Below are positions 14,433 to 56,139 of a DNA stretch of 64,000 nt, piece by piece. A program made the translations under genes and the position numbers. Below the pieces are notes generated by a model, which was not told where the DNA came from, did no database searches, and saw nothing but the letters and a program-made list of their open reading frames with translations. The stretch spans positions 1 to 64,000 of the forward strand of contig JANXOP010000447.1 of the NCBI GenBank assembly GCA_025357755.1, written 5' to 3'. The DNA is from Kofleriaceae bacterium (GTDB taxonomy: Bacteria; Myxococcota_A; Polyangia; Haliangiales; Haliangiaceae). The number at the start of each line of letters is the position of its first letter. The first letter of the stretch is position 1.

Positions 14433-14438
14433 TACTAT
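14433..14438 (+). promoter_or_regulatory. -10-like TACTAT exactly 6 bases before a start codon
   Basis: TACTAT ends at 14438. A transcript starting seven bases later would begin on the A of the lipoprotein ATG at 14445, giving a leaderless mRNA. No TTGACA-like -35 is visible at normal spacing. It is one of eleven such placements in this window. Confidence 0.45.
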
Positions 14439-14444
14439 CGTGGG

Positions 14445-14765
14445 ATGCGCAGCCTTTTTCTCGCGATGATCTTCGTTGCCGCTTGCGGCAAGACCGACAC
14501 CTCCGGCGCGCACTGCGTCCTCGGCAATGCGTGCGAGGACTACGGGCCCGCGGCGACCGATCTGCCGGCGCACGAAAAAGAGTGCAAGGCGCTCACCGGC
14601 ACGTACGCGGTCGGCCGCTGCCCGATGGGCAACCTCGTCGGTGAATGCGTGACCGACAAGAACCTCCACCGCTCCTATTACTCGGGGGGCGCGAACGCGT
14701 TCACGAAAGAGAACGGCGCTGCGAGCTGCGAGCACGAGTTCCACGGCGTGTGGACCTCGCACTGA
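14445..14765 (+). CDS. Small cysteine-containing lipoprotein of unknown function
   Basis: A 106-residue protein with a short signal peptide and lipobox (MRSLFLAMIFVAAC), so it is predicted to be lipid-anchored. The mature part has paired cysteines (HCVLGNACED, KECKAL, GRCPMGNLVGEC, ASCEHEFHG) that could form three disulfides, and no recognised domain. The start is placed at 14445 because it gives a clean signal peptide and follows the TACTAT hexamer. A longer reading frame upstream lacks a signal. The 162 bases between the nitrilase stop and this gene contain no other gene. Confidence 0.7.
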   Translation: MRSLFLAMIFVAACGKTDTSGAHCVLGNACEDYGPAATDLPAHEKECKALTGTYAVGRCPMGNLVGECVTDKNLHRSYYSGGANAFTKENGAASCEHEFHGVWTSH

Positions 14766-14786
14766 GCCGCTAACGCAGTACCCGTT

Positions 14787-14803
14787 TGAATCGATCCGAT
14801 TCA
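14787..14803. repeat. Short inverted repeat between convergent genes
   Basis: TGAATCG and CGATTCA flank a 3-base spacer in the gap between the lipoprotein stop (14765) and the convergent membrane-protein gene (stop at 14911). No T-run follows on either strand, so a terminator role is weak. Confidence 0.3.
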
Positions 14804-14828
14804 GGCGCCGAGCTTGCGAGGCGACCTA

Positions 14829-14854
14829 GACGAAATAGACCGACGAAATAGACC
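14829..14854. repeat. Perfect 13-bp tandem duplication
   Basis: GACGAAATAGACC occurs twice in direct succession in the 145-base gap between two convergent genes. The unit is AT-richer than its surroundings. Copy number could vary between strains. No function is evident. Confidence 0.6.
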
Positions 14855-14910
14855 AGGGCGTGCACCTCGCTGACGGATCCCGCTGCGGTTCAGCCGACGT
14901 GGGACCCGCG

Positions 14911-17238: not shown

Positions 17239-17244
17239 ACCCTA
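17239..17244 (-). promoter_or_regulatory. -10-like TAGGGT six bases before the recJ start
   Basis: On the minus strand TAGGGT is separated by exactly six bases (GCGCGC) from the recJ GTG. This fits a leaderless recJ transcript. Confidence 0.4.
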
Positions 17245-17314
17245 GTGCGCCGCTCTGACACCGAACCTCGTAAGATCCCGGGAGAACTGGCGATCCCGGG
17301 ATCTCGAAACGCAG

Positions 17315-17320
17315 TAACGT
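17315..17320 (+). promoter_or_regulatory. -10-like TAACGT five bases before a start codon
   Basis: TAACGT lies five bases before the ATG of the lipoprotein gene at 17326 and faces the recJ promoter 70 bases away. A leaderless or nearly leaderless transcript would result. Confidence 0.35.
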
Positions 17321-17325: not shown

Positions 17326-18276
17326 ATGATCCGCGCTCGCACCGCCCTGTTCTTCGCATGTTTGTCGTCGGTGATCGCGTGCGATCGCGGCGTGAAGATG
17401 GAACACCACGAGCTACCGGGGTTCGCGATCGATCTTCCGAGCGGGACCGAAATCCCGGGCTACACCAACCTCGAGTACGCGAACGGCTCGATCGGGATCC
17501 AAGACGCCGAGCACGGCCGCATCGTGATGATGCAATGGAGCGTCGGGACCAAGCTCGGCGGAACGGAGCTCGACGCGATGCTCAGCGGCTTCCGGGCGAT
17601 CGTGAAGACGTCTGGATCGGCGGCGCGCATCGTCGATCCTTGGGGCCCGGGCCCCGGCAGCGGCATCGAGACGATGAAGATCGACGCCGAACCCTTTCCG
17701 TTCTATCTGAACCAGGTCGAGTGCGCCGGACGCGACGTCGTGATCGTCAGCGGCGCGGCGCACGACGCGGACACGTTGCGTCACGCGATCGTCACGAGCC
17801 TGCGGTGCAAACCCGATCCGGTCGCCGAGAAGAAGCTCGGCGAGGTCGCTGTCGAGATCCAGATCGAGCTGCCCGGATGGCACGTGCTGAGTAAGGACGA
17901 AGGCCAGCTGATGCTCCAGAACGACACGGGCTCGATCGCGATGATCGAGCCGATGGGCGTGATGGATCACAAGGACTTCATGACCGCGGTCGGACCGATG
18001 CTGCAGCAGGCGTTCAAGGGCACCGTCATCGTCGGCGCGGTCGAGGGTGACCTCGTGCCGCTCAGCGGGACGCTCGAAGGCACGACGGTGATCGGCGTCT
18101 CGCGAATGATCAAGTGCGGCAAGAAGTCGACGCTGGTGATCCAGCTCTCGCCCTCGCGCACGCTCGCAGACCAACTCCGGCCCGTCATCGAAGCGGCGAA
18201 GTGCCTGGCGCCGGGCCAGGCGCCTCCGACCTGGCCAGCCCAGCCGACCGAGCCGGCCGCGCCAGCAACCGAGTAG
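17326..18276 (+). CDS. Lipoprotein with two similar halves, unknown function
   Basis: A 316-residue lipoprotein (signal and lipobox up to SSVIAC, about residue 19). The mature part looks like a tandem duplication. One half contains HELPGFAIDLPSG and ends with CAGRDVVIVSGAAHDADTLR and SLRCKPDP. The other contains IELPGWHVLSKDEG and ends with CGKKSTLVIQLSPSRTLADQ and EAAKCLAP. Each half thus has a leading ELPG(F/W) strand and a closing pair of cysteines. A Pro/Ala tail follows. No family is recognised. The stop TAG abuts the convergent secF stop with no bases between. A much longer open frame upstream is antisense to recJ and is not used. Confidence 0.75.
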   Translation: MIRARTALFFACLSSVIACDRGVKMEHHELPGFAIDLPSGTEIPGYTNLEYANGSIGIQDAEHGRIVMMQWSVGTKLGGTELDAMLSGFRAIVKTSGSAARIVDPWGPGPGSGIETMKIDAEPFPFYLNQVECAGRDVVIVSGAAHDADTLRHAIVTSLRCKPDPVAEKKLGEVAVEIQIELPGWHVLSKDEGQLMLQNDTGSIAMIEPMGVMDHKDFMTAVGPMLQQAFKGTVIVGAVEGDLVPLSGTLEGTTVIGVSRMIKCGKKSTLVIQLSPSRTLADQLRPVIEAAKCLAPGQAPPTWPAQPTEPAAPATE

Positions 18277-22058: not shown

Positions 22059-24174
<2,116 letters not shown>

Positions 24175-24181: not shown

Positions 24182-24187
24182 AAACTA
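24182..24187 (-). promoter_or_regulatory. Extended -10-like TGCTAGTTT before queA
   Basis: On the minus strand TAGTTT is preceded by TGC, so the extended -10 pattern TGNTANNNT is complete. It lies seven bases before the preferred queA TTG start, which supports that start. Confidence 0.4.
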
Positions 24188-24235: not shown

Positions 24236-24241
24236 TATTGT
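24236..24241 (+). promoter_or_regulatory. -10-like TATTGT seven bases before a start codon
   Basis: TATTGT precedes the ATG at 24249 by seven bases. The divergent queA promoter is only about 50 bases away. Confidence 0.4.
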
Positions 24242-27269: not shown

Positions 27270-30200
27270 CTACGAGAGCGCGGCGAGCGCGTCTTTGAGC
27301 TTCTGATTCTGGGGCTCGATCTCGAGCCCACGCTGGAACATCGACTTGGCCTTCGGTGCCTGGCCGAGCTCGATGTGAATCCGGCCGAGTGACCAGTAGA
27401 CCTCGCCCTTCGTCACACCTGCATCGACATCGATGTTCTGCAGCACGAGCGATTGGTAGATCTTGCGCGCCTTCTCCCAGTCCTTGGCCTCGAAGTAGAG
27501 CCGACCGAGGCCCGTCATGGTCGAGACATCGGTCGGGTTCACGCGGAGCGCTTCTTCGTAGGCCACCGTCGCACCGGGGCGATCGTTGCGGGCTTCGAGG
27601 ATGCTGCCCTGGCGCTGCCGGAACTTCGCGACATCCTTCATGCGACGCGCGGTCTTCGCTTCCGTCGCGAGCCGATCGTAGATCGGCGCAGCTTCGTCGA
27701 GCCGGCCCGCGGTGAAGTACATGTCGGCGAGCGGTCCCAGGACGCGGATGTCGTCGGGCGCAACATTCGCGGCACGCGCGAGAGCGGCGAGCGCTGCGTC
27801 TGTGTGGCCCGCCTTGCGCTCGAGGTCCGCGATCTCGACGAGGAGCTCGACGCTCGCCGCGCCCGGTGTCGCCTCGAGGCGACGCTGCAACATCTCGGCG
27901 AGCAGGCTGCTGTCACGGCGTTCGCGCGCGAGCCTCTCGAGCGCATCGATGGAAGGCGCGTGCGTCGGATCGTGGCGCAGCGCTTGTTGGAAGTGCTGGA
28001 TCGCCGTGTCCTCGTCGGAGTCGCCGACGCGCGCGACCTCGCCGAGCCGGAAGAACAGGTCCGCGGCATCGCGACCCTTCGGATCGAGCGCCAGCGCTTG
28101 CTCGAGCGTCGCCTTGCACTTCGTCCAATCGCCGGAGCGCTCGTAGATCTTCGAGAGTCGCGTGAGTGCGGCGACCGAACCCGGCTCGCGCGCGAGGATC
28201 TTCTCGAGGATCTCGCCGGCCGCATCGGGAGAATCGAGCTTGCTCTCCCAGACATCGGCGGCGCGAGCGAGGGCTTGGATCTCGGCGCGGGTATCGCCGA
28301 GGCTGCCGTAGAGCTCGCCGCGACGCTCGAGCAACTCGACGAGATCGTGATGGCGGCCGGCGGTATCGAGCAAGCGCTCGAGCTCGTCGTACGCGCGCTG
28401 GCTGGTGTTATCGATCTCGAGCGCGGAGTACCAGGCCGTGATCGCGTCGTCGACCGACTGGCGCCGGCCCTCGGCAAGCTGCGCCATCTCGGCGTAGATC
28501 GCGATCTTGTCGCCATTCGACTTCGCGAGATCGAGGCGGCGCGTCTGGATGTCGCCGACCGCGATCCAGTCATTGTTCTTCGCGAGGGCTTGCTCGAGCT
28601 GGCCCAAGCTGGTGACGTCCTCGGGATCGAGGTCGACCACGGCCTGCCATGCCGAGATCGCGCGCGGCGTCTCCGCTTCGAGACGCGCGATCTCGACCAG
28701 TAGGTTCTTCTCGTCGGTCGACTCCGGTGCGAGGCGCGAGGCGCGGGTCAGCGTGTCGACGAGCGCGGACCGGTCGTCCGGCGTGTGACCGTTGCGATAG
28801 ATCCGCGCGAGCTGATCGAGCGCATCGCGATCGTTGTCGTCGTCGCCGATGATCTCTTTCCAGGCGTGGATCGCAGCGCCGCGATCACCCGCACGTTCGG
28901 AGATCTGCGCGACCTCGGCGTACGCGGCGCGGCGCTCGCTCGGCTCGGGCGCGACCTTGCCGCGCTGGCGCAGCGCCTCGCCGAGCGCGACGGTGTCGCC
29001 GCGCAAGCGCAGGATCTCGATCAAGGGATCGAGCGCGGCGAGCTCTCCGGGCTCGAGCGCGAGTGCCGCGCGATACGTGCCGATCGCTTCTTCGGCCTGG
29101 CCCAGCTTGTCGCGCTGGACTCGACCGAGGAACACCAGCAAGGCGACCTGCACGTCGGGCGACCGGTGCGGTGCATCCGACGCCGTGACGATCGAGCCGA
29201 GCTTATGCGCGGTCTCGGTCCATTGACCGAGGCGCTCCGCGAGCCGCTCGACCTCGCTCAGTGCTTGGTCGGACGCCGGATCGACTTCGAGCCAGCGCAG
29301 CGCTGCATCGAGCGCGCGCGCGAGGTTGTTCAGGCGGTGCTCGAAGAGCTCGACCAGCCGCTGGAGGATCGCCGCGCGATCGAGCTGGTCGCTCGTGGTC
29401 GCGAGCTTGGCCTCGAGGACATTCGAGAGCCGCTGCGCATCACCATCTTGCTCGAACAGCGGCTCGAGGATCTCGACGATGTCGCGGCGCAGATCGCCCG
29501 CGGTCTCCAGCATCCGCTCGAGTGCGGCGCGCGCCTGCGGGTGCTCCGGCACGAGCCCGAGCACGTCGCGATACGCCGCGACCGCCTCGCGCGGAGACGC
29601 GAGCGTGGTCTCCTGCAGATCGCCCATGCGGAACAGATACTCGGCGGTCTGTGGCTCGCTCTCGGCCGCGTCGGCCTGGCGACGCAGCACCGACGCGAGC
29701 TCGGCTGACTTGTTGCTGCGATAGAGCACGCGTTCGAGCGCGGAGAGCGCCGCGCGCGGCTCCGGGCCCTTCGTGCCGCGATCGAACGCGCGCGCCGCGC
29801 GATCGAGATCGTTCAAGCGATCTTCAGCGATCGAGCCGAGCCGCATCGCGTACGCCTGATCGACATCGGGCGGCAGCGGCTTGTCTTGATCGTCGAGTCG
29901 CTCGTCGAGCAGCTTCGCGAAATCGCGCCACAGATTCTGAGTCTCGGCGAGCCGCATCAGAGGCTGCAGGCGGTCCGCATCCTCCGGATCGTCGGCGAGC
30001 GCCCGGCCCCACACCACGAAGGCCTGGGCGGGTTGGTTCGCGAGCGTCTCGCGGGTCTCGGCGAGCGCCTGCCAATCAGCGCGGCGCGCATCGGGATCGC
30101 GACCGGTGACCGCGAGGCGACGCTCGTAGACGCGGACCAGGCCCGAGGCTTCGTTCGCCGCGCGGTAGACGCGCTCGAGGATCGGGGTGGCCGCTTCGAC

Positions 30201-33200
30201 GTGATCGTCCTGTTGCATCAGCGCTTCGAGCGCTGCGCGGGCACCTTCATGGGCCGGCAACACCTGGAGCACGGCGCCGAACCGTGGAATCGCTGCATCG
30301 GGATCGGTGAGCTCGATCTCGACCAGCTTCGCCGCGCGGAATGCGAGGTCCGCGCGGTCCTTCGTGTTCGCAGCGAGCAGCGCGCGCTTGTCGACGATAT
30401 CGAGCAGCTCGGGCCACAGCTTCTGCTTCGCGTAGATCCGATCGAGATCGCCGAGCGCACCCTGATCGCCAGCATCGTCGTCGAGGATCGCGGTCAGATG
30501 TCCGATCGCTTGATAGACGTCGTCGAGCTGGCCTTCGTAGACCGCCGCCGCGGAGTGGCGCAGCGCCAGGCGCGCAGCCTGATCGGTGGACAGCTCGATC
30601 TTGCGTTCGATCGTCTGCGCGAGCTCGCGCGCGGCCTCCTTGTCGCTCGGATCGCCCGCGCGATACAGCCGCTCGAGCGCATCGAGCGCCGCGCCATCCG
30701 AATCGTCGACGCCGAGCACGTTCTTGTAGGCGATGATTGCCTTCGGCTTGTCGGCCAGCACCTCTTCGTAGAGCGCCGCGACGCGGTGGAGCAGCACGAG
30801 CCGCACGCCGGCATCTTCAGTGAGCTCGGCACGGCGTTCGACCACCGTCACGAGCTCGAGGACGCGACCTTCGAGCGCGAGCAAGCGATCGAGCGACGAC
30901 AGCGCGATGAGGTCATCGGGGCGAGCTTGATCGACCTTGTGCCACGCATCGATCGCGCGCTTGCGATCGCGGCGCTGGCCTTCATGGATCTCGGCCGCGC
31001 GGGTCCACAGGCCCGCCGCGAGCTCACCATTCGGCGCCGACGCCGCACCATCCTCGACCGTACGCGCAGCCTCGTCCCAGGCGTTGAGCTTGCCGGCGAG
31101 CGAGAGCAACTTCGTGAGCGCGGCATCGTCCGAGACATCGATCCGCCACGCGCGTGCGAGTGCCGCCAGCGCCAGATCGATCGCACCGCCGCGATCTTCA
31201 TGGAGCTCCGCGATCTCGTGCAGCGTCTGGACCTGTTCGAACGGATCCATCACGTATTCGAGCTTCGCATCGAGCACGACGACCAGCTTCTGCCACCAAT
31301 CCTGCGCGCGATAGACCGGCTCGAGGAGCTCGATCACGCGAGCGCGATGATCGTCGTGAATGACGAGCCGCTCGAGCGCCTGGACCCCGCGCTCCCACAG
31401 CCTCTCGCCGTGGAGCACCTCCTGATACTGGTCGATCGCGGCCGGGAGATCCTGGAGCTGGTTCTCGTAGATATCGGCGAGCCGGAGGCGGAGCTCGGCC
31501 GTCTCGGTGTGATCGTCGGTGCGACCGAGCCGCGCTTCGATCAGATCGACGAGCTCGTGCCACTGCGCGCGCAGGCGGAACAGCCGCTCGAGCTCGCCGA
31601 CCGCATCGCGATACGCGCGTTCCGCGGTCGGGGTCTCGCCGCTATCGGTCGCGAGGACCACCTCGCGCCACGCTTCGACGGCGCGCGCGGTGTCCTGTAG
31701 CCCGTCCTCGAGCAAACGCGAGCGCTTCACGAGCGCCTCGATGCGGAGCTCTTCGTCGCCCCGCGTGATCACGTCGTCGTAGACCGAGACCAGATCCGCC
31801 CAGCGCTGCGTGCGACCGAGGAGATCCTCGAGGCGCTTCACGAGCTCGCGCGCATTCGGCACCGCATCGTCGGCCTCGATCGCGAGCGCACGGCGATAGG
31901 CCGCGAACGCGTGATCGGTATCGTTCAGGCGACGGTCGTAGATCGTGGCGACCACGATCGCGACGTCGCGGATGTCTTCGGTCTCGCCGCCGTCATCGAG
32001 GTAGCCCTGATAGCTCTCGGCGACGAACGCCCAGTTCTCGGTGATAGACGCGAGCCGGTTGAGCTGATCGCGGACCGCGGGATCGGACGGAGCCTCGCGA
32101 AACACCTTCGCGAACCAGCGCGTGGCGTTCTCGAAATCTTCGAGCTGCTCTTCGAAGAGCCGCGCGACGAACCGGGTGAGCCGCAACCGATCTTTCGGAT
32201 CCGCGGCAGATTCGAGCTTCGCTTCGTAGACTCGAACGAGGTCGTGCCAGCGCTGCTGTGCCACGAACACGGGCTCGAGCACCTCGGCCGCTTGCGCGCG
32301 TGCTTCAGGATCGTTGAGCAGCCGCTCGAGCGCCGCGAGCGCCGCGGGCTGCCTGCTATTGCCGCCGAGCGCGGCCGCGTAGTTCTCGATCGCGGCCTCG
32401 ATGTCGTGGATGTGCTTCTCGTGCAGCTCGCCGAGCTGGACGCGGAGCGCGACCGCCTCTTCATTCGACGTGACGAACCCGAGCCGGCGCTCGTAGAGCT
32501 CGACCACGTCGTGCCAGCGGTTCTGCTGGCTGTAGAGCGCCTCGAGCGCGTAGATCGCATCGGCGCGCTCGGGCGCGATCTCGAGGACCTGCTCCCAGAC
32601 CCGGATCGCGTCGTCGGTGCGCTTCAGGGTCGTGTAGATGCCGGCGGCCTCGACGAGGCCATGAACCTGATCGTCCGGCGTCGCGCCGAGCTCGGGCGAG
32701 GCCTGGCGGAGCAGCACGTCGACGAGGTGTTCCTCGTCGTTGGTCTCGCGATAGATGCTCTCGAGGGCGGCGAGCGCACGCCGATCATCCGGTTGGACGT
32801 CGAGCACCTTCTGGTAGTACTCGCGCGACATCCCGAGGTCGCGGCGCACCGCGCGCGCGAGGTCAGCGATATCGAGGTAGAGGCGACGCTGGATCTCGGC
32901 GTCGAGGACCTCCGGCGCGACGGCGCGATAAACATCGATCAGCTCGGCTTCGCGGCCGAGCTCACCGGCGAGGCGCTCGGTCTCGCTGACGGAGCGGGCG
33001 AGCTCGGGCTCGGTCGCCGCATGGCGAAGGGCCTGGAGCTGCGCTTCGAACGCGCCGGCTTTATCGCCGAGCCGGTGCTCGCGCAGCATCACCACCTCGT
33101 TGAGGGCCTTGAGCTTGGTCGCGGGATCGTCGGTCCATTCGGACTGGCGCATCGAGAGCGCGGCGAGCCGGTCGTCCTGGGCGGTCGCCGAATAGACGGG

Positions 33201-36200
33201 GCGCAGGATGTCGGCGGCAGATGCGCGAAGATCCGGATCCTGGAGCGCGGCTTCGACCGCAGCGAGGGCCTCGGGGTGCTGCGCATCAGCGTGCAGCACG
33301 TTCTCCCAGCGATCGAGGGCTTCGACCGGGCGCTGGAGCGGGCCACCCAGGAGTTTCGCGACCTCGATCTGCAGCGGCAGCGTCGAGTCCCCGCCGCGTC
33401 CGTGCGGATTGTTCGCGAGCTGACGCTCGTAGATGTCGAGCAGCTCGGCGTGGCGGTTCCCGGCGCGATACAGCCGCGCGAGCTCGCCGAGAGCGCGCGC
33501 GTTGTCACCATCCTCGTCGAGGACTTCCAGCCATGCGGCGGTCGCTTCATCGGTCTCGTGCAGCTTCTGTTCGTGGATCTCGGCGATCCGACCGAGCAGC
33601 GGCACGCTCTCGGCCGGCATCGCATCGATCACGCGGCGCAAGATCTCGATCAGGTCGCGCCAGCGCTCGGCGGCGGTGTAGAGCCGCTCGAGGGCATGCA
33701 AGGCGCCCTCGTCGCTCGGATGGTCCTGGAGGACCTCGCGCCACGTCGCGATCGCGGCATCGCGCGAATCGAGCTGATCTTCTTCGAGCACCGCGACCCG
33801 CGCGAGCAACCCGCGCCGCTCCGCTGCATCTTCGGCCCAGTGCGCTTGCTTGCGCTGGACATCGCGCAGCTCTTGCCACGCCTTGCCCTCTGCGTACAAA
33901 CGCGCGAGCGCGGCACCGGCGCGACGCTGGGTCGCGGGCGACGCGGCATCGCCTTCGAGCAACCTTCGATACGCGACGATCGCACGCGGCGCATCGCCAA
34001 GCTCGGCGTCGTAGTAGGTCGCGAGCTCGCCGAGCAGCGCACCGCGCGTCGATAGATCGGACTCGGGCGTCGCGTTGACCGCGGCTTCGAGCGCGGCGGT
34101 TGCCTCGGGCCAGCGCTGCAACCACTGCGCGAGTCGCGGTAGCTCGATCCGCGCCCGCTCGTCGGTGGGATCGAGCTTTAGCACTTCGAGCCAGGCTTCG
34201 AAGGCGTGGCCCGGGGTACCGAGCTCGGACTCCTCGAGTTGCGCGATCCGCGCGAGCAGCTCGATCGCTTCGGTCCCTTCGACGAGGCCGCGCTGGACCC
34301 GCAACAAGCTCGCGAGGTCCGCCCACTGCTTTGCGCCCTCGTACAGCGGCTCGAGCACGCGGCTGATCCGCATCCGGTGCGAGCTCGCCTTCGGATCCGT
34401 CAGCAGATCCTCGAGCAACTCGCGGCCCTGCGCGTGATCGCGATCCCGCGCGATCACATCTTCGAGCAGATCGATCGAGCGGCTCGGATCAGCAAGCTCG
34501 TGCGAGAACAGCTCGGCTCGGCGGTACGCGAGCGTGTTCGAATTCGCGGCGTCGTACTCGGTGCGGCGGGCGAGCAGCTCCTCGAGCTCGGTCCACTTGT
34601 CGGATCCGGTGTAGAGCCGATCGAGGGCGGTGAACGCTTCGCTATTTGCGGGCGCCAGTTCGAGAGCGCGGCGATACGCAGAGATCGCGCGCGTCGCGTC
34701 GCCGAGCATCTGCTCCTCGAGCACCGCGAGCTGGAGCAACGCGGCGAGCCGCGCGCGCTCGTCGATGGTGACCTCGGCGCGGCGCTCGAGTAGCGCGCGC
34801 AGATCGAGCCAGCGCTGGTCGGCGCGGTACACGGCCGACAGGGCGTCGAACGCGTCGGTCGCATCGGCCTCGACCTCGAGGACCGCGAGCCAACCGCGCT
34901 CGGCGGTCGGGCGATCCGCGAGCCGTTCGCCGGCGAGCACGGCCAGCTCGGTCGCGACCGCTCGGATCTCGGCCGGTGCGGCGTGGGTCTGCTTGAGCGT
35001 GGCGAGTGCGGCGGTGAGGTGCTTGGCCCATTCGCCATCGCGGCCGAGCTGGCCGGCGAGGTTTCCCAGGGCGCGACGGATATCGGTGTCCTGCGGTTGC
35101 GCGGTGACCACGCGCAGACCCGCAGTCCAGGCCGCGCCCGGATCGCCGAGCTCGACGTGATAGATGCGCACCAGCGCTCGATCGAGATCAGCCTTCTCGG
35201 TCGCGCCGGTCTCGTCCGACGCCCGCAAGACCTCGAGCGCCGCAGCTTGCTGCGCGGCGAGCTTGCCCGCCTCGAGGTGCGGCAACACCTCGCGGACAGC
35301 GGCGATGCGCTCCTTCGAATCGAGCTTCGCGGCCGTCTCGGGCACCAGCACGAGCCTCGCGATCGCAGCGATCGGTTGCGATCGCACGACTCCGCCCTGG
35401 GCCGGGATCGCGAGCGCTTCGCGGTAGTACGCGAGGGCCTTGGCAGGTTGCTCGAGGCTGTGCTCGTGCAGCGAACCGAGCCGCATCACGAGCTCTGCAC
35501 GCGCGCTCGGATCCTTCTCGTTGCCGAGCTCTTGCGCGAGCACCTCGGCGAGCGATGGATAATCGCCGCGCGCATCCTGGACCTTCGCGAGGGCGCGCAG
35601 CACCTTGGGGTGACCCGGCGCGGCTTGCAGCGCTTCTTGGTACGTCGCCGCGGCGCCGTCGAGATCCTGGAGCTTCTGTTCCTGGATCTGCGCAGCTTCG
35701 AGGAGGAGGTTCGCCTTCGCGGGCGCCTCGGTCTCGCGATTCGCGCGCCTCCGGAACGAAGCGAGGAGCTCGCTCCAGTCGGCAACCTGGGTCGCGAGAT
35801 CCTCGAGGTTCGCCTCGGCGTCGCGATCCTCGGGCGCGGCCTGGAGCACCTTGCGGTGATACCCACGCGCCATCTCCGGATCGCCGAGGCGCTTGGCCGC
35901 GATCTTCGCGAGCTCGCGGAAGGTGCTCAGCCGCTGCGGCTCGGGCAAGGTCCCGCCGGCGATCGCGCGCTCGAAGGCTCCGACGACCTCCTTCCACTGC
36001 TCGCGCTCGCTCGCGAGCCGCATCACGTCGTCGTAGAGCTTGGGGTTCGCGGGCTCGAGCTCGTAGGCGCGCACGGCCCACGTAAACGCGAGCGTCTTCG
36101 ACGCGAGTTTCTGCTCGCACAACGCACGGATCTGTTCGATCTTGCCGAGCTTTGCCCGGGTCTCGGTCGCCGCGCCGAGCTCGATCTCGTACATCGAGAG

Positions 36201-38669: not shown

Positions 38670-38675
38670 GTTCGG

Positions 38676-38681
38676 GTCCTA
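38676..38681 (-). promoter_or_regulatory. -10-like TAGGAC six bases before the giant TPR gene
   Basis: On the minus strand TAGGAC is exactly six bases from the GTG at 38669. It also contains an AGGA that could act as a Shine-Dalgarno site, so the two readings compete. Confidence 0.35.
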
Positions 38682-38751
38682 CAACCGATCGCGCTTGTCC
38701 ATTCGGCGAGTTACAGCGGCCCTGGAGATCGATCCGGAGTGCGGGCGGGTG

Positions 38752-38757
38752 TATATC
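38752..38757 (+). promoter_or_regulatory. -10-like TATATC seven bases before an ABC exporter gene
   Basis: TATATC is the most AT-rich spot in the 95-base divergent gap and lies seven bases before the GTG at 38765. Confidence 0.4.
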
Positions 38758-38764
38758 TTTCGGC

Positions 38765-40681
38765 GTGAGTAGTCAGGGCCGAAGCTCTCTCGGCTATCTG
38801 CGGCCGTATCGCGCGATCATTGCAGGTGGCGTCCTGTGTCTGGTCGCCACGAACGCCGCTTACATCGGCGTCGCGGTGTTCTTGAAAGACGCCGTCCAGG
38901 CCATCAAGGACGCTCGCGGAATCGCGGACATCGCCGAGGTCATGCGCTGGCTGTCGCTCCCTGCGAGTCCCGCTGCCGCACTCGAAGACTGGCGTCGCGT
39001 CCACACCGCGCACGCGACCGATGCCGCCATCCACGCGGTCGAGCTGCTCGTCCTGTTCGCGGTCGTCACGGCGATCACCCGGATCTTCTCACGCGTCTGG
39101 ATCTTCAATGCGGCGCGCGCCGCGGAGTACGATCTGCGCAGCGATCTTTTCGGCCACGCGCTGTCGCTCTCACCCGGCTACTACCGAGATCATCCGACCG
39201 GCGATGTGATGTCGCGGCTCACGAACGATGTCCAGGTCGTGCGCGCGATGTGGGGGGCCGGCCTCGTCCATCTGTCCAACGCGGTCACCTCGTTCGCGAC
39301 GGTGCTGCCATTCATGTTGTTGCTCGACTGGAAGGTCGCGCTCATCGCGATCATCCCTTATCCCTTGATCTTCTTCATCGGCCAGATGCTGTCGCGCCGG
39401 ATCTACACGTCGATGCGCGCGGTCCAGGGCGAGCTCGGCGGGCTGTCCGCGCGGATCCAGGAAGACCTCGGCGCGATCCAGGTGATCAAGACCTACGGGC
39501 TCGAGGGGCTACGTCGCGAAGGCTTCATCGCGTCGAGCAAGCGACTGCTCGACAAGAACATGGTCGCGGCGATCGTCCGGATCCAGCTCACGCCCACGCT
39601 CAATGCGCTCGCGTCTTCCGCGGTCGCGATCTTGATCGTGATGGGCGGACGCGCGGTCATCCACACCGATCTAGATGTCGGCGAGTACACCGCGTTCGCC
39701 GCGCTGCTCGCCCGCCTGGTCTGGCCCACGCTCACGCTCGGGTTCATGCTCGCGCTCGTCCAGCGCGGCCGTGCCTCGTGGAGCCGCCTCGTCGCGCTCC
39801 AGGACGAGGTCCCCGCGATCCAGGATGGGCACGGCGAGCCGCTCGCGGCCACGCCCGAGCCCGCTCATGTGGTGGTCAAGGACCTCACGATCACGATCGG
39901 CGAGCGCACGCTGCTCGATCACGTCTCGTTCGAGCTCGCGCCGAGCACGGTCACCGCGATCGTTGGCCGCACCGGTTCGGGTAAGAGCACGCTCGTCGAG
40001 GCGCTCTGCCGGCTCATCCCCGTGCCGACCGGCTCGATCGCGATCGATGGTCGCGACATCACCGACGTGCCGCTCGATTCACTGCGCGCGCAGATCGGGT
40101 ACGCCCCGCAGGAGGCGTTCCTGTTCTCGACGACGATCGCGGACAACGTCGCCATGGGGTATGGCGCCGGCACCGCGATACCGGCCGCGCGCCGGGCCGA
40201 GCTCGAGCGCGTGGGCGCCGCCGAGTCCGCGCCGGATCTTTCCGATGCGCCGCGCGTCACCGCGGCGGCGGATGCCGCGGGGCTCACGCGCGACCTCGCC
40301 GTGATGCCGGATCGGCTCGCGACGATCGTCGGCGAGCGCGGCATCACGCTCTCCGGTGGTCAGCGCCAGCGGGTCGCGCTCGCGCGCGCACTTTCGGCCG
40401 AGCCTCGCTTGCTCGTGCTCGATGACTCGCTCGCCTCGGTCGATGCCGAGACCGAGCGCGTGATCCTCGCGAATCTCCGGCGCGTGATGAAGGGACGCAC
40501 CGCGGTCCTCATCAGCCATCGCATCGCCGCGATCAAGGATGCCGATCAGATCCTCGTCCTCGATCAGGGCAAGATCGTCGCGAAGGGTACGCACGCTCAG
40601 CTGATCGGCCAGGCGGGGGTGTATCGCGATCTCTATCGCACGCAGCTCGATACCGAGTTCGAGATCCGGGACGTGGGCTGA
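38765..40681 (+). CDS. ABC exporter half-transporter A (fused membrane and ATPase domains)
   Basis: A 638-residue type IV ABC exporter subunit. The membrane domain (about 1-330) has six predicted helices and the coupling motif PTGDVMSRLTNDV. The ATPase domain has Walker A GRTGSGKST, Q-loop YAPQEAFLF, signature LSGGQRQRVALARAL and Walker B LLVLDDSLASVD. Asp replaces the usual catalytic Glu after Walker B, as in the A subunits of MdlAB-like heterodimers. A stretch of about 40 residues between Q-loop and signature is longer than usual. The start GTG at 38765 is the first good one. The TGA overlaps the next ATG (TGATG). Confidence 0.9.
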   Translation: MSSQGRSSLGYLRPYRAIIAGGVLCLVATNAAYIGVAVFLKDAVQAIKDARGIADIAEVMRWLSLPASPAAALEDWRRVHTAHATDAAIHAVELLVLFAVVTAITRIFSRVWIFNAARAAEYDLRSDLFGHALSLSPGYYRDHPTGDVMSRLTNDVQVVRAMWGAGLVHLSNAVTSFATVLPFMLLLDWKVALIAIIPYPLIFFIGQMLSRRIYTSMRAVQGELGGLSARIQEDLGAIQVIKTYGLEGLRREGFIASSKRLLDKNMVAAIVRIQLTPTLNALASSAVAILIVMGGRAVIHTDLDVGEYTAFAALLARLVWPTLTLGFMLALVQRGRASWSRLVALQDEVPAIQDGHGEPLAATPEPAHVVVKDLTITIGERTLLDHVSFELAPSTVTAIVGRTGSGKSTLVEALCRLIPVPTGSIAIDGRDITDVPLDSLRAQIGYAPQEAFLFSTTIADNVAMGYGAGTAIPAARRAELERVGAAESAPDLSDAPRVTAAADAAGLTRDLAVMPDRLATIVGERGITLSGGQRQRVALARALSAEPRLLVLDDSLASVDAETERVILANLRRVMKGRTAVLISHRIAAIKDADQILVLDQGKIVAKGTHAQLIGQAGVYRDLYRTQLDTEFEIRDVG

Positions 40682-42513
40682 TGGCGGTCGCGCGTAAGGC
40701 CGGCATCGAAGCCGAGGCCGTCCTTGGCAAGGCCTATGACCTCCGGCTGATCAAGCGGATCGCGAAGTACGTCCGCCCGCACCGCGCGATGCTCGCGGCG
40801 TGGGTGGTGTTCATGCTGCTCGGCATCGCGTTCGAGCTGGCCCAGCCGCTGCTGTTCGTCTACGTGCTCCAGCACCACATCCTCGACGACAAGATCGCGA
40901 TGCTGCCGTGGGATGCGCTCGCGTACATGGGCCTCGTCCTCGGGCAAGGCGTCTCGGGGTTCTGCGACCAGTGGTTCTTGCAGCTCGCCGGTCAGCGCAC
41001 GATGCATGACCTGCGCATCTCGATCTTCGATCACGTGCTCGCGCAGCGCGCGGCGTTCTTCGATCGGATCCCGGTCGGCCGGCTGATGACGCGCATGACG
41101 AACGACATCGAGAGCCTCAACGAGATGTTCGCGCAGGGCGCGATCACGTTGATCGCGGATGTCGTCAAGGCGATCGGGATCGTGGTCATCATGATCTCGA
41201 TCGACGTCCGGCTCTCGCTGCTCACGTACACGACGCTGCCGCTCGTGTTCATCCTGGTCGAGGTCGCGCGCCGTGCGATGCGTAAATCGTTCCGCCAGAT
41301 CCGCGTGCGGCTCGCTGCGATGAATGCGTTCGCGCAGGAACACTTGTTCGGCATCCGCGTGATCCACCTCCTCGGGCGCGGCAAGATCGCGCGCCGCGAG
41401 TACGACGAAGTCAATGCCGGCCATCGAGATGCGTACCTCCTCCAGATCCAGGCAGATGCCGCGATGTACGCGCTCGTCGAAGCGATCGGCTACATCGCGA
41501 CCGGCCTGGTCATCTGGTGGGCCGCCGGACACCGCATCGAAGACGCCGCCACGATCGCGGTGGTCGTGGTGTTCATCGAGTACATCAACAAGTTCTTCAT
41601 CCCGATCCGCGACCTGTCCGCGAAGTACGCCGTCATGCAAGGCGCGATGGCCGCGAGCGAGCGGATCTTCCAGCTCCTCGATACCGAGGAGTACGACGGC
41701 GCCGTCGCACTCGTCCTCGGGACGACGCTGAAGGATCACGATGCGCCCGGGGAGCCCTCGAAGGTCGCCGCGGACTCACCGTCGATCGAGATGCGCAACG
41801 TCCAGTTCAGCTACGGCGCCGAGCCGGTGCTGCGCGGGATCGATCTCAGCGTGCCGCGCGGTGCGACCGTCGCGGTCGTCGGGGCGACGGGCTCCGGCAA
41901 GTCGACCGTCATCAAGTTGCTCACGCGCCTCTACGAACGGGACCGCGGTTCGATCAAGCTCGACGGCGAAGATATTCGCGACCTCGAGCTGGCCGATCTG
42001 CGTCGCCGGATCACCGTGGTCTCGCAGGACGTCACGCTGTTCGCCGGTACTCTGCGCGACAACATCACGCTCGGCAAGGTCCACAGCCAGGCCGAGCTCG
42101 ACGCTGCGGTCAAGCGCGTCGGCCTCGATCGCGCGCTCGCGCGGCGTGCCGGTTCGGTCGATTCCGCGCTCGGCGAGAAGGTCGCCGAACGCGGCGCGAA
42201 CTTCTCCGCGGGAGAACGTCAGCTCGTCGCGTTCGCGCGTGCGCTGCTACGCGATCCCGAGGTCCTCGTCCTCGACGAGGCGACCGCGCACGTCGATCCC
42301 GAAGCCGAGGTGCTGATCGAGAAGGGCGTGCACGAGCTGATGAAGGGCCGCACGACCCTCGTGATCGCGCACCGGCTCTCGACGATCCGCAACGCGGATC
42401 TGATCGTGGTGATGGACAAAGGCTTGATCGTCGAGCAAGGGACGCACGACGAGCTGGTCGCCAAGGGCGGGTTGTACGCGGCGCTCGAAAAAACGTTCCG
42501 CCGCCAGGACTGA
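40681..42513 (+). CDS. ABC exporter half-transporter B
   Basis: A 610-residue partner of the preceding gene. Six membrane helices (with VGRLMTRMTNDIESLNE) are followed by an ATPase domain with Walker A GATGSGKST, Q-loop VSQDVTLFAG, Walker B VLVLDEATAHVD (catalytic Glu present) and H-loop VIAHRLST. The signature is degenerate, FSAGERQLVAFARAL instead of LSGGQ. Together the pair has one consensus and one degenerate ATP site, the pattern of asymmetric heterodimeric exporters. An insert between the membrane and ATPase domains (TTLKDHDAPGEPSKVAADSP) is specific to this copy. Substrate unknown; lipid or drug export are common for the family. Confidence 0.9.
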   Translation: MAVARKAGIEAEAVLGKAYDLRLIKRIAKYVRPHRAMLAAWVVFMLLGIAFELAQPLLFVYVLQHHILDDKIAMLPWDALAYMGLVLGQGVSGFCDQWFLQLAGQRTMHDLRISIFDHVLAQRAAFFDRIPVGRLMTRMTNDIESLNEMFAQGAITLIADVVKAIGIVVIMISIDVRLSLLTYTTLPLVFILVEVARRAMRKSFRQIRVRLAAMNAFAQEHLFGIRVIHLLGRGKIARREYDEVNAGHRDAYLLQIQADAAMYALVEAIGYIATGLVIWWAAGHRIEDAATIAVVVVFIEYINKFFIPIRDLSAKYAVMQGAMAASERIFQLLDTEEYDGAVALVLGTTLKDHDAPGEPSKVAADSPSIEMRNVQFSYGAEPVLRGIDLSVPRGATVAVVGATGSGKSTVIKLLTRLYERDRGSIKLDGEDIRDLELADLRRRITVVSQDVTLFAGTLRDNITLGKVHSQAELDAAVKRVGLDRALARRAGSVDSALGEKVAERGANFSAGERQLVAFARALLRDPEVLVLDEATAHVDPEAEVLIEKGVHELMKGRTTLVIAHRLSTIRNADLIVVMDKGLIVEQGTHDELVAKGGLYAALEKTFRRQD

Positions 42514-43024: not shown

Positions 43025-43030
43025 TATGAT
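43025..43030 (+). promoter_or_regulatory. -10-like TATGAT near the hybrid kinase start
   Basis: TATGAT is five of six matches to the -10 consensus. It ends nine bases before ATG 43040 and three before ATG 43034. The second ATG would then carry a leader of two or three bases. Confidence 0.4.
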
Positions 43031-47428: not shown

Positions 47429-48544
47429 TCAATGGGCTTTACGCCGTCGCGCGATGAACCCGAGTGCGGCGACCACGAGCCAGCTCCCACCACCCTCCGC
47501 GACCGAGCAGCCACCGCCTGTCGTGCACGCCTGCCGAGCCGCGACAGGAAGGCAGGAAAAGCCCGAGGGACACGATCCGTCGCTGCCGCACGGGACCGTG
47601 CAAGCCGCCGCATCGAGGTCGCAAAGCCCCGATCGGCATTCGTCATTCGTCGCGCACCGGGCACCCGCGATGCCAGGCGGATCGCCCTCATAGCCACACG
47701 TCGCCGCCGTACATGTCGAGAAGGGTGCCTCGCAATCGGCCGTGGTCGCGCACGCCGCTGCGCAGTAGTGGCCGCGCGCGTCGCCGACACAGAGCCGACT
47801 CTCGCAATCGGTCGCGACCGCGCAGGTGGCACCGGCGAGGCCGCCGACCGGGCAATCGAGATCGACCTCGGTGCACGCCGTGGCGCACGTGCCCTCGAAG
47901 CCACACGGATCGCAGGTGCCACAGGTGCTGCTCCACGCGGCGATGACCTCGGCGAGCTGCGGCTCCGAATCGGGACGCACGAGGTACGACGCGGCGGTGC
48001 ACGTGGCGTCGCCCGCCGTGATGAGACCGACGAGCGCTCCGTTGCCATCGATCGCGGCGCCCCCGGAATCGCCGGTGCACGTGGTCGAGCCCGCCTCTCC
48101 CGCGCGCGCGGTCCGAGCAGTCACGGTGGTGATCCAGGTCGTGACGGCGTGACGCTCGCCGCGCGTACCACCGGCAACCATCGCGCCGAAGCCCACGAGC
48201 GTCACCGTCCCCTCGACCGGCGCGGCGATCGGTAGCGGCGTGATGCCGGCGTCGCGATCGAGCAGCAGCGCCGCGAGGTCGTGTTCGACATCGCCGACGT
48301 AATAGCGATCGACCCACGTGCGAACCACGTTCGCGGTTTCACCGCCGAGCTCGACGGTCCCGAGGCCCGGCGCGATGCAGTGCGCCGCCGTCACGACGAC
48401 GCGCGGTGCGACGACGACGCCCGAGCACTGACCACCGCCGATGGCGATCGAGACGACCGCCGGGTCGCCCGCATCGACGCTGCCGCCGACGATCGGCGCG
48501 AGCGCAGAGACGTCGAGTGCCCATGCGAGCAGCGCGCAAATCAC
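47429..48544 (-). CDS. Secreted trypsin-like serine protease with cysteine-rich region and MYXO-CTERM-like tail
   Basis: A 371-residue exported protease. A short signal peptide leads into the activation-like site PIVGGS. The S1 triad is His55 (VTAAHC), Asp89 (EHDLAALLL) and Ser160 (GDSGGAA). After about residue 205 comes a cysteine-rich stalk of repeats of the DCESRLC, DECRSGLC and TTADCEAPF kind, about twenty cysteines. It ends with a MYXO-CTERM-like sorting signal: GGCS, the hydrophobic span WLVVAALGFI and the basic ARRRKAH. This implies surface anchoring or processing by the myxobacterial CTERM route. The GTG start is only 38 bases from the divergent asd start. Confidence 0.88.
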   Translation of the reverse strand: MICALLAWALDVSALAPIVGGSVDAGDPAVVSIAIGGGQCSGVVVAPRVVVTAAHCIAPGLGTVELGGETANVVRTWVDRYYVGDVEHDLAALLLDRDAGITPLPIAAPVEGTVTLVGFGAMVAGGTRGERHAVTTWITTVTARTARAGEAGSTTCTGDSGGAAIDGNGALVGLITAGDATCTAASYLVRPDSEPQLAEVIAAWSSTCGTCDPCGFEGTCATACTEVDLDCPVGGLAGATCAVATDCESRLCVGDARGHYCAAACATTADCEAPFSTCTAATCGYEGDPPGIAGARCATNDECRSGLCDLDAAACTVPCGSDGSCPSGFSCLPVAARQACTTGGGCSVAEGGGSWLVVAALGFIARRRKAH

Positions 48545-48550: not shown

Positions 48551-48556
48551 ATAGTG
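48551..48556 (-). promoter_or_regulatory. -10-like CACTAT six bases before the protease start
   Basis: On the minus strand CACTAT is exactly six bases before the GTG at 48544. The gap to asd is too short for a conventional leader, so a leaderless transcript is plausible. Confidence 0.35.
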
Positions 48557-51965: not shown

Positions 51966-51971
51966 TATGCT
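51966..51971 (+). promoter_or_regulatory. -10-like TATGCT nine bases before a start codon
   Basis: TATGCT lies between the recQ stop and the GTG at 51981. Spacing allows a leader of two or three bases. It suggests the small membrane gene is not only read through from recQ. Confidence 0.3.
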
Positions 51972-51980: not shown

Positions 51981-52391
51981 GTGGCGCAGAGACTGATCGT
52001 TTGGTGGGCCTGGGCAGTCGCTACCTTCTTGGTAGTCGTCGGCGCCATTGGCATGTTCACCGACGACATCGGCCCCCTGCCGACGAACCGGATCCACGCG
52101 GTCGGCCTCAACCTCGGCGTGGGCCTCCTCGGCTTTGGCTTCGCGCGGTTCGGCGCGGAGGCGCTGTTCACGCTCGTGTCGGGGCTCGGGATGGTCGGCC
52201 TCGCGATCCTCGGCTTTCTGCCGCTGACCTCGAACTTGCTCTACACGCGCCTCCACATGAACCGGGTCGAATCGTGGTTCGAGCTGATCGCCGGCCTGCT
52301 CTCGCTCGCGCTCTACCTCGCAGCGCGCGCTAGTGCGAGCGCTGGCGACGAAGCTCGTACAGCGCCAGCGCAGCCGCCACAGACACATTGA
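51981..52391 (+). CDS. Small four-helix membrane protein (DUF4383-like)
   Basis: A 136-residue membrane protein with four predicted helices (VATFLVVVGAIGMF, LNLGVGLLGFGFARF, LFTLVSGLGMVGLAILGF and LIAGLLSLALYLAA). The NRIHAVGLNLGVGLLG motif resembles DUF4383, which has no known role. A Thr/Ala/Pro tail follows. The start is set at GTG 51981; a TTG seven codons earlier is possible. Its last 62 bases overlap the end of convergent rlmB, so part of the C-terminal tail is encoded antisense to the last RlmB residues. Confidence 0.65.
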   Translation: MAQRLIVWWAWAVATFLVVVGAIGMFTDDIGPLPTNRIHAVGLNLGVGLLGFGFARFGAEALFTLVSGLGMVGLAILGFLPLTSNLLYTRLHMNRVESWFELIAGLLSLALYLAARASASAGDEARTAPAQPPQTH

Positions 52392-53523: not shown

Positions 53524-54218
53524 GAGAGCTCCTCCACGATCGCGCGGGCCGTGGCCGCCGGGTTGGTCGCGTCGCGCAAGGGGCGCCCGATCACGACGAG
53601 GTCTGCGCCTGCCGCCCTCGCCTGCCGGGGCGTCATCACGCGCTTCTGATCACCGGCCGCGCTGCCCTCCGGTCGCACGCCCGGTGTCACGATCAAGAAC
53701 CCGGCAGGCAGCACCGCACGTAGCATCGCAACCTCGTGCGCTGAAGCAACGATGCCGTCGCACCCCGCGGCGACCGCGAGGAGAGCACGCTTCTTCACGA
53801 GCTCGGCGACCGGTCCGATCGCGCCGATCTGCGCGAGGTCGTTGTCGTCGAGCGAGGTCAGCACCGTCACCGCGAGCACCTTGGTGTCGCCCGCTTCGCG
53901 TGCCGCCTTGACCGCCGCCGCGAGCATCGCGTGCCCGCCGCTGGCGTGGACCGTCAGCAGGCCGGCGCCGAGGCCCGCGACCTTCGCGGTCGAGCGCGCG
54001 ACGGTCTCGGGGATGTCGTGGAGCTTGAGATCGAGCATCACGTGAAGGCCGCGCGAGGTCAGCTCGCGCACGATCGACGGCCCCTCCGCACAGAACAGCT
54101 CGAGGCCACACTTGACCCAGCTCGGCACGCCTTCGAGCTTGCCGACGAACGCTTCCGCATCCGCACGGCTCGGCGTATCGAGCGCCACGATCAATCGATT
54201 TCCGACGGAGAACGCCAT
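53520..54218 (-). CDS. pyrF: Orotidine 5'-phosphate decarboxylase
   Basis: A 232-residue PyrF, the last step of UMP synthesis. Family motifs: RLIVALDTPSRADAEAFV (substrate Asp near residue 14), VKCGLELF, the catalytic MLDLKLHDIPETVARS with its Asp-x-Lys-x-x-Asp array, and VTPGVRPEGSAAGDQKRVMTP near the phosphate site. The length is typical for the bacterial group I enzyme. The stop overlaps the rlmB start. A 7-bp inverted repeat lies directly before the ATG. Confidence 0.96.
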   Translation of the reverse strand: MAFSVGNRLIVALDTPSRADAEAFVGKLEGVPSWVKCGLELFCAEGPSIVRELTSRGLHVMLDLKLHDIPETVARSTAKVAGLGAGLLTVHASGGHAMLAAAVKAAREAGDTKVLAVTVLTSLDDNDLAQIGAIGPVAELVKKRALLAVAAGCDGIVASAHEVAMLRAVLPAGFLIVTPGVRPEGSAAGDQKRVMTPRQARAAGADLVVIGRPLRDATNPAATARAIVEELS

Positions 54219-54219
54219 G

Positions 54220-54238
54220 GGCCGTGTGTATCACGGCC
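54220..54238 (-). repeat. Inverted repeat directly upstream of pyrF
   Basis: GGCCGTG and CACGGCC flank a 5-base loop and end one base before the pyrF ATG, in the 26-base gap after the LpoA-like gene. A hairpin here would hide the start region. It may reduce read-through or translation. There is no T-run. Confidence 0.4.
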
Positions 54239-54244
54239 GTCGCG

Positions 54245-56104
54245 TCACTTAGCGGTGCGAATCGCGAACACGCTGCCGGTCTCCTCGACGACGGTGTAGA
54301 CCACACCCGCATCGCTACGATGGTGATCGCTGTCGAACCTGACCGTACCCGTCACACCGGCGAGCTGTCCCTTCGCGATCGCCGTCGCGAGTGCACCGCG
54401 ATCGTTGCTGCCACCCGAGACCACGAGCTGCGCCGCATCGTACGCATAGGCTTCACCCGCGCCCGGCACGTGACCGTACGCCGCGACGAACTTGTCGATG
54501 AACGGCTTCGTGATGGGATCGGCATCGTCGGGATAGAACCCCGGCGCGAGCAGCGCACCTTCGGCGTGGCGCCCGGCGCTGGTGAGAAAATCATTCGTGA
54601 GGTCTTCGGCGGTCGACAGCAGCATCACCGGCCGCCCTCCGAGCACCTTCTTCGGGAACGGCATCGCTTTGGGCACGTTGCCCGCGGCCGCGATCGCGGG
54701 CGCGGAGAGTGCGAGCTTGTCCGCGGTATCGGGAACGAACACGGCCTGCCAGCCCTCGGTGCCGAGCTCCTTGGCCTTGCCGGCGAACGACTTGGAGTCC
54801 TTCGGATACGTCACGGTCTTGGCGATCGTACCGCCGCCCTTCTGAACCGCGTCGACGAACGCGGCGGTCACGGCCTTGCCGTAGCCGCTATCCGGCGCGA
54901 ACACCGCGAACGTGTGGATGCCCTTCGCGAGCGCGCGGTTCGCGAGGATCCGTGCGCGCTGCTCGGCAGAGTGGCGGATGTGAAAGATGAAGCGGCCCTT
55001 GAGGCGCTGGTCCGCGGCGGTCGCGAGCGAGATCAAGGGCAGCCCGAGGCTCTCGGCGCGCGCACCGGCCGCGTCGACGATGCCACCTTCGATCGGCCCG
55101 ACGATCGCTATCACGTGATCGTTCGCGAGCGTGTCGACCGCTTGTTCGCCCTGGGTCTTGTCGCCCGCAGGGCGGACCTCGATCGCGGCGATGCCCGCGC
55201 CATTCGGCGCGCCTGCGGCGAGGCCGAGCCCGGCGACCGCGGCATCGGCGATGCGATTCTGCGTGCCGAGCGGGACGACCGCGCCGATCAACCCGCGGTT
55301 GCTCGTCGCGGGTGCGCCACCGACCGCGGCTGCGGTGATCGTGCGTGAGAGGCCGAGCGTGGCGCGAACCTCGGCGACTTCGTTGCGCAGCTTCGCGGCT
55401 CCAGACGTATCTCCCGCTTGATCCGCGCGGACCACGAGCTGGCTGCCGACCAACGCCCAGGCCGGACCGTCGTGACCGATATGATCCCACACCGCGCGGA
55501 GCTGATCTTGCGGCGCGGAGGCACAGACCTCTTCGATGCGCGCGACCATCACGGCCTTCTCGGTCGGTGATGCGAGCTTCCACAGCCGATCGAAGATCGG
55601 TAGCGCTGCGAGCGGCTTGTCGCCGGCAGCGGTCGCGTATGCGAGGGCACCGAGGTACTCACCGCGCTCGTCATCATTCTCGATTGCCACCTCGGCTTCG
55701 CTCAGCAGCCTGCGGGCGCCCGCGGCATCACCCTCGTAGTTCTTGACGATGCCGAGGAACAATTGCGCCTTGGCGTGCGTTCCGGAGTCGGTCGCACCGG
55801 CGAGCGCGCGCGTGAGCTGTGCGTCGGCATCGCGGAACTTGTGCGCCTTGATCTGAGCGTAGCCAGCGTAGACCTCGGCGAGCGGCACGATCGGATCGTG
55901 CGGAAAGTCCTCGATCAGGCGCTTGAACTCGTCGGCCGAGACACGCGAATCCTCGAGGAATTTCGCCTTGGCCTCGTTGAACCGCTGCTTCGCGGCCGGA
56001 TCGGAGTTCGAGGGAATCGCCGGTCCGATGACCTCGCGCTTGCCATGGCATCCCGCGGCAGATGCAACCGCAGCAACGACCAGGGCGGACAGAACGGTTC
56101 TCAC
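54245..56104 (-). CDS. LpoA-like lipoprotein with TPR region and periplasmic binding-protein fold
   Basis: A 619-residue lipoprotein (lipobox VASAAGC, Cys about 19). Residues 40-230 are TPR-like helices (AKFLEDSRVSADEFKRLIED, PIVPLAEVYAGYAQIKAHKF). From about 260 it has a type I periplasmic binding-protein fold (GLIGAVVPLGTQNRIAD, VIAIVGPIEGGIVDAAGARA, TFAVFAPDSGYGKAVTAAF, GTEGWQAVFVPDTADK). This order is that of LpoA, the outer-membrane activator of class A penicillin-binding proteins. It also matches amino-acid receptor-type binding proteins. The neighbouring pyrF and rlmB give no hint. GTG start with TAGTGT six bases upstream. Confidence 0.8.
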   Translation of the reverse strand: MRTVLSALVVAAVASAAGCHGKREVIGPAIPSNSDPAAKQRFNEAKAKFLEDSRVSADEFKRLIEDFPHDPIVPLAEVYAGYAQIKAHKFRDADAQLTRALAGATDSGTHAKAQLFLGIVKNYEGDAAGARRLLSEAEVAIENDDERGEYLGALAYATAAGDKPLAALPIFDRLWKLASPTEKAVMVARIEEVCASAPQDQLRAVWDHIGHDGPAWALVGSQLVVRADQAGDTSGAAKLRNEVAEVRATLGLSRTITAAAVGGAPATSNRGLIGAVVPLGTQNRIADAAVAGLGLAAGAPNGAGIAAIEVRPAGDKTQGEQAVDTLANDHVIAIVGPIEGGIVDAAGARAESLGLPLISLATAADQRLKGRFIFHIRHSAEQRARILANRALAKGIHTFAVFAPDSGYGKAVTAAFVDAVQKGGGTIAKTVTYPKDSKSFAGKAKELGTEGWQAVFVPDTADKLALSAPAIAAAGNVPKAMPFPKKVLGGRPVMLLSTAEDLTNDFLTSAGRHAEGALLAPGFYPDDADPITKPFIDKFVAAYGHVPGAGEAYAYDAAQLVVSGGSNDRGALATAIAKGQLAGVTGTVRFDSDHHRSDAGVVYTVVEETGSVFAIRTAK

Positions 56105-56110
56105 GCCTCA

Positions 56111-56139
56111 ACACTAACGGTGCCACCCATCAGGGGCAA
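56111..56139 (-). promoter_or_regulatory. Promoter: TTGCCC-17-TAGTGT six bases before a start codon
   Basis: On the minus strand TTGCCC (56134-56139) and TAGTGT (56111-56116) are 17 bases apart. TAGTGT is exactly six bases before the GTG of the LpoA-like gene. This is the one hexamer in the set with a decent -35 match at standard spacing. Confidence 0.5.

Follow-up and report, generated by a model that had tools for sequence, protein, structure and literature searches.

A 64,000-nucleotide stretch of DNA from a Kofleriaceae bacterium (contig JANXOP010000447.1, positions 1 to 64,000, called the window) raises the question of why hexamers of the form TANNNT recur a few bases ahead of its start codons. 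The initial annotation, made from the letters alone, had read this layout as a sign of many leaderless transcripts, with the hexamer serving operon-leading genes. The window corresponds to contig C184 in an assembly of 8.61 Mb and 450 contigs, with 89.9% completeness and about 66% guanine plus cytosine (G+C). We found the same layout at a sharp position throughout a sample of the rest of this genome, and widespread leaderless or near-leaderless transcription, a mechanism known in another lineage, is probably the best reading of it.

TANNNT hexamers, their conservation and their anatomy

Given that the window itself had suggested the idea, the fair test was the rest of the same genome (G000), of which 0.95 Mb holding 675 genes, about 11% of the genome, was sampled. 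The gene caller was built on codon statistics alone and made no use of upstream signals, so the choice of start is independent of the upstream sequence; spacing is counted as the bases between the end of the hexamer and the start codon. TANNNT ended 6 or 7 bases before the start in 79 of the 675 genes, against about 6.5 expected. The peak is sharp, with 48 genes at spacing 6 and 31 at spacing 7 versus about 3.3 per offset (pooled after retraining). The first outside sample gave 53/390 genes, compared with 3.5 from neighbouring offsets and 4.0 (standard deviation 1.8) from dinucleotide shuffles, and the second, fetched later, gave 27/289 versus about 3.1. A tolerant test, which allows for start errors by accepting any in-frame start within 60 bases and takes its expectation from control spacings, returned 106 of 673 genes against 19.3. 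The excess amounts to 10.7% of genes at spacings 6–7, 14.6% at 5–9 and 17.6% at 5–13. Thus the peak at -7 to -12 that the initial annotation had proposed to look for, with genes split by context, proved strongly positive.

Within the window, TANNNT at spacing 6 or 7 precedes five of the 39 called genes, compared with about 0.4 from the summed shuffle means and about 0.14 from neighbouring offsets. Counting queA would raise this to six: the caller picked 24183 as its start, and the orthologs favour 24174. The hexamers are as follows.

14433..14438, + strand: TACTAT, -10-like, spacing 6 to the ATG at 14445
17239..17244, - strand: TAGGGT, -10-like, spacing 6 to the recJ GTG at 17232; kept in 13/13 usable orthologs (12 at spacing 6, one at 7)
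24182..24187, - strand: TAGTTT preceded by TGC (TGC-TAGTTT), extended -10-like, spacing 7 to the queA TTG at 24174
24236..24241, + strand: TATTGT, -10-like, spacing 7 to the ATG at 24249 (HEAT-repeat protein); TANNNT at 6–8 in 11/15 usable orthologs
56111..56116, - strand: TAGTGT, -10-like, spacing 6 to the GTG at 56104 (periplasmic-binding or LppC-like protein); TANNNT at 6–7 in 10/14 usable orthologs by automatic count
6603..6608, - strand: TACGGT, spacing 6 to the GTG at 6596, within a 14-base same-strand gap; absent from the initial annotation
17315..17320, + strand: TAACGT, spacing 5 to the ATG at 17326 (lipoprotein-like gene), off the peak
43025..43030, + strand: TATGAT, spacing 3 to the ATG at 43034 or 9 to the ATG at 43040 (histidine kinase), a candidate for a short leader only
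51966..51971, + strand: TATGCT, spacing 9 to the GTG at 51981, a weak gene (DUF4383, E 2.9e-4, under the family cut-off)
38676..38681, - strand: TAGGAC, not TANNNT, spacing 6 to the GTG at 38669 (giant TPR protein), ortholog starts uncertain
38752..38757, + strand: TATATC, not TANNNT, spacing 7 to the GTG at 38765 (ABC transporter), not consistently kept in orthologs
48551..48556, - strand: CACTAT, not TANNNT, spacing 6 to the GTG at 48544 (trypsin-like protein with MYXO-CTERM)

Every hexamer quoted in the initial annotation exists in the sequence, and eight of its 11 match TANNNT; those ahead of 38669, 38765 and 48544 do not. Five of the 11 have TANNNT at spacing 6–7 (14445, recJ, queA, 24249 and 56104), and the three other matches lie at 5, at 9, and at 3 or 9. 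The hand-picked list is thus sound for about half of its sites.

Orthologs of five genes were collected at 108 loci with starts chosen automatically, of which 74 were usable and 34 were unaligned or lacked a start. TANNNT stands at spacing 6–8 in 46 of these 74 (27 at 6, 12 at 7 and 7 at 8), at 0–5 or 9 in none, at 10–13 in six and at 14–39 in four. By gene, the counts at 6–8 are 13/13 for recJ, 10/14 for the LppC-like protein, 11/15 for the HEAT protein, 8/24 for queA and 4/8 for an S9 peptidase. Part of the misses reflect a wrong start choice, as in L256, where TATCGT lies six bases ahead of a GTG by eye; the others have no TANNNT at the site and are mainly queA in more distant genera. The queA orthologs retain TGCTAGNNT at variable spacing. 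The recJ orthologs, at 70–74% protein identity, align from residue 2–3 and carry the same GTG directly behind the hexamer. They (L217–L228 and L230) also share TGTCA about 10–11 bases ahead of the -10 box, seen by eye in 14/14 sequences including the window's own (17250–17275); being too close for a -35 element, it is perhaps an operator.

The hexamer behaves as a unit: of 133 sites with TA at spacing 6–7, 79 also have T at the sixth position, compared with 99 of 465 farther upstream. TG stands one base ahead of the hexamer in 20 of 83 matches versus a mean of 3.8 at other positions, marking part of the sites only. A -35-like element, TTTGC[AG] placed exactly 18 bp ahead of the -10, was seen by eye in eight of the 14 usable LppC-like orthologs (L256–L263 and L267); as exceptions, L256 has TTTGGA at the -35-like place, and L254 and L255 lack the spacing. 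A hexamer with TGn and no general -35 box is what an extended -10 promoter looks like. Inspected by eye, the genome's main sigma factor appears ordinary.

Gene context and competing explanations

Outside the window, TANNNT at spacing 6 or 7 depends on gene context. It precedes 29/239 divergent genes and, among same-strand genes, 12/131 at distances of at least 60 bases, 8/68 at 25–59, 25/59 at 9–24 and 5/169 at less than 9; genes at contig edges have 0/9. At 9–24 bases the motif is more frequent than in divergent genes (p 6e-7) or in genes less than 9 bases from a same-strand neighbour (p 1e-12). This tight-gap effect was first spotted in the first outside sample and is weaker but still holds in the second, with 8/27 at 9–24 bases versus 14/156 for divergent plus at least 60 (p 0.006) and 1/69 below 9 (p 1e-4). 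The initial annotation had assigned overlaps or Shine-Dalgarno sites to operon-internal genes in place of the hexamer, a division that holds below 9 bases and fails at 9–24. Shine-Dalgarno-like 4-mers occur in 2/79 TANNNT genes and, among genes without TANNNT, in 55/162 of those less than 9 bases apart and 58/414 of the others.

The S9 peptidase is one such tight-gap gene, and the gene ahead of it presumably ends like a sigma factor, judged by eye. In its relative L282, TAGCTT comes immediately after the neighbour's TAG, with six bases and the ATG behind it; other relatives have longer gaps with the box still close to the start. For a second tight-gap gene, encoding a TPR/HEAT protein, TANNNT was seen by eye 6–12 bases ahead of the likely start in 10 of 11 slices of relatives (three at 6, two at 8, three at 9, one at 10 and one at 12), the remaining slice having no clear start. 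Thus in both sets of relatives the -10-like box is kept while the length of the gap changes.

We interpret the hexamers as -10 elements of a housekeeping sigma-70-type promoter whose RNA would start on the start codon or a few bases before it, making the messages leaderless or nearly so, with a probability of about 0.88. The predicted start of the RNA on the start codon itself rests on sigma-70 -10 box geometry. Recognition by RNA polymerase would then rest on the -10 box, often extended, and not on a -35 element, and the ribosome would initiate at a 5'-terminal ATG or GTG without a Shine-Dalgarno site. The same promoter would be packed into the 9–24-base gaps between many same-strand genes, and such neighbours may therefore be transcribed separately. 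Genes overlapping their neighbour would depend on read-through transcription, about one third of them also on Shine-Dalgarno-like sites. The peak and the ortholog conservation support the leaderless interpretation put forward in the initial annotation; its restriction to operon-leading genes does not stand, and about half of the sites offered for it are off-pattern.

Several observations weigh against this interpretation. A general -35 box is absent: TTGAC occurs in 0/83 matches and TTG at a spacer of 15–20 in 3/83, where controls give 2–4. Start calling is imperfect, with 29/40 annotated starts recovered in Escherichia coli and 36/58 in Deinococcus deserti among the genes found. Because the hexamer takes up most of the stretch scanned for Shine-Dalgarno sites, TANNNT genes are in part bound to give a low count there. 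The spacing drifts to 8–13 in orthologs of queA and of a TPR/HEAT gene, and spacings above 8 would therefore give some transcripts leaders of a few bases. Finally, a Rhodococcus plasmid intended as a positive control was weak (2/74 at called starts; 4/73 versus 0.7 in the tolerant test), below the actinobacterial expectation.

The imperfect start calling also bears on an improbable alternative, that the -10 box is real and the annotated start lies too far upstream, the true start being deeper in the gene and preceded by a conventional leader that carries a ribosome site. The ABC-transporter and giant-TPR families, whose orthologs agree on no start, would fit it. However, the recJ orthologs share the GTG right behind the hexamer, and the peak follows start codons to within one or two bases; a promoter placed independently of the start would not produce this. 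Less probable again is that the motif, instead of being a promoter, serves translation or reflects base composition, such as unpaired AT-rich bases ahead of the start. It does occupy the exact place of ribosome sites and comes without a general -35 box, yet its sequence is that of a -10 hexamer with an extended TGn, and what the orthologs conserve is T1, A2 and T6 and not AT-richness. Moreover, overlapping or abutting genes need translation and not a promoter of their own, and the motif is nearly absent precisely there.

Chance, selection by eye or the TAA and TAG of upstream stop codons would account for the off-pattern half of the initial list. They might also explain part of the tight gaps, where, among 26 hexamers including the window's, six share bases with the neighbour's stop codon or coding end, six follow directly after the stop and 14 lie later. 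The other 20 of these 26 thus stand behind the stop codon. In-frame stop codons were tried as the source of the TA and rejected: TAC or TAT opens 37 of the 79 hexamers, and at spacing 7 the hexamer is not in frame with the gene. As a general explanation this one is refuted by the outside count of 79 versus about 6.5 together with the ortholog conservation, and we give it next to no weight.

For the tight gaps we advance a narrower proposal at even odds: in this genus a same-strand gap of 9–24 bases would more often hold a whole leaderless promoter than join two genes of an operon, with TANNNT-N6/7-start packed behind the neighbour's stop codon or built from it, and the trait seems limited to a single lineage of Myxococcota. 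The counts at such gaps are 3/19 in G025 and 0/4 in G016, both of the same family, 0/2 in Deinococcus, 0/6 in Rhodococcus and 0/6 in E. coli, and the effect is thus established for the window's genome only. If the proposal is true, the rule that near neighbours share a transcript fails at such pairs, and gene order hides many one-gene transcription units.

Relatives, controls and known systems

MYXO-CTERM is a marker of myxobacteria. Its signal (TIGR03901) has 19 matches in the window's genome and is found in 0/14 control genomes, 34/35 members of the order and 88/112 of the phylum, which places the genome in Myxococcota. A search for 16S ribosomal RNA, wanted for its anti-Shine-Dalgarno sequence, found none in the assembly; the same search missed it in 5/14 control genomes and may itself be at fault.

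All three genomes sampled in the family show the TANNNT peak. In the tolerant test, G025 (72% G+C) gave 28/253 versus 2.6 and G016 (49% G+C) gave 33/153 versus 12.0. G016 is filed in the same family at 49% G+C, against 66–73% for the other two, and the peak is still there. Elsewhere in the phylum, 100-kb samples showed no excess in G134 (0/52; 0.1 expected), G041 (1/70; 4.1) and G063 (1/58; 2.8) and a weak one in G084 (5/71 versus 1.4). Two order-level samples, G030 with 22 genes and G032 with 14, were too small to show where the trait arose. The E. coli control had no peak (0/62; 5/62 versus 6.0 in the tolerant test), and a D. deserti plasmid, the positive control, had one (13/62 at annotated starts; 10/77 versus 2.0 in the tolerant test).

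A study of the leaderless transcriptome of Mycobacterium tuberculosis reportedly mapped TANNNT and leaderless transcripts experimentally, unlike the starts here, which are predicted from sequence. In Deinococcus-Thermus, TANNNT lies about 6–7 bp ahead of open reading frames, for nearly a third of Deinococcus radiodurans genes, and is backed by transcript levels and promoter tests (PMC12340547). The distance is the same as here, T1, A2 and T6 are nearly invariant there, and the motif is kept in homologs and coexists with a Shine-Dalgarno-type motif. In contrast, the excess here covers about 11–18% of genes depending on the spacings counted, is known from sequence alone and belongs to Myxococcota. 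The consulted passages of Zheng et al. (2011) describe TANNNT in Actinobacteria and other bacteria with its first T about 12 bp upstream, and in their Table 2 leaderless genes are predicted for eight of 33 delta-Proteobacteria, making up 15.8% of genes on average (PMC3160421). The upstream distance again agrees, as do the weak middle positions typical of high-GC genomes; the dependence on same-strand spacing found here is not met in those passages. Short co-directional spacers have been described, in the portion of the source consulted, as fitted to the Shine-Dalgarno motif (PMC2784483). There too the short intergenic spacer holds an initiation signal, a ribosome site in that case and a putative promoter -10 box in ours. 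GeneMarkS-2 results, as cited in the part consulted of PMC9581028, predict leaderless transcription in 21.6% of bacterial species.

Because the layout equals the Deinococcus-Thermus motif and predictions for delta-Proteobacteria exist, we regard this as a known kind and not a new mechanism. The promoter layout is already known; a family of uncultured Myxococcota is a new host lineage, and the tight-gap promoters are the less expected part. A search of the literature by title and the start of abstracts returned nothing on leaderless transcription in Myxococcota, Myxococcus xanthus, myxobacteria or Deltaproteobacteria, its broadest query being covered in part, which leaves room for such a paper. 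A layout best known from Deinococcus-Thermus and Actinobacteria would now extend to a Myxococcota family and is apparently not common to the other Myxococcota sampled, and a single phylum would permit comparing lineages with and without abundant leaderless messages. In practice, start-codon annotation in these genomes can be corrected with TANNNT-N6, and distance-based operon calls would be misleading at 9–24-base gaps.

Other genes of the window

At the 17326 locus the caller put a gene on the opposite strand (17413–18174), and the plus-strand frame 17326–18276 has a lipoprotein-like N-terminus. Pfam and NCBIfam gave no match for either frame, nor do the recJ loci of relatives hold a match to either. 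Given the lipoprotein-like N-terminus, the plus-strand gene is probably the real one and the minus-strand frame its shadow. The plus-strand gene at 61134, which the initial annotation had set aside as not fitting the layout, is itself doubtful, lying mostly inside a well-scoring minus-strand gene (57561–61415). The trypsin-like protein at 47429–48544 ends in a MYXO-CTERM tail, which supports that gene model. In the region 27270–42513, the gene for a TPR protein of 3799 residues and those for a pair of ABC exporters are oriented divergently, and congeners such as L234, L237, L240 and L243 carry similar TPR N-termini near the transporter.

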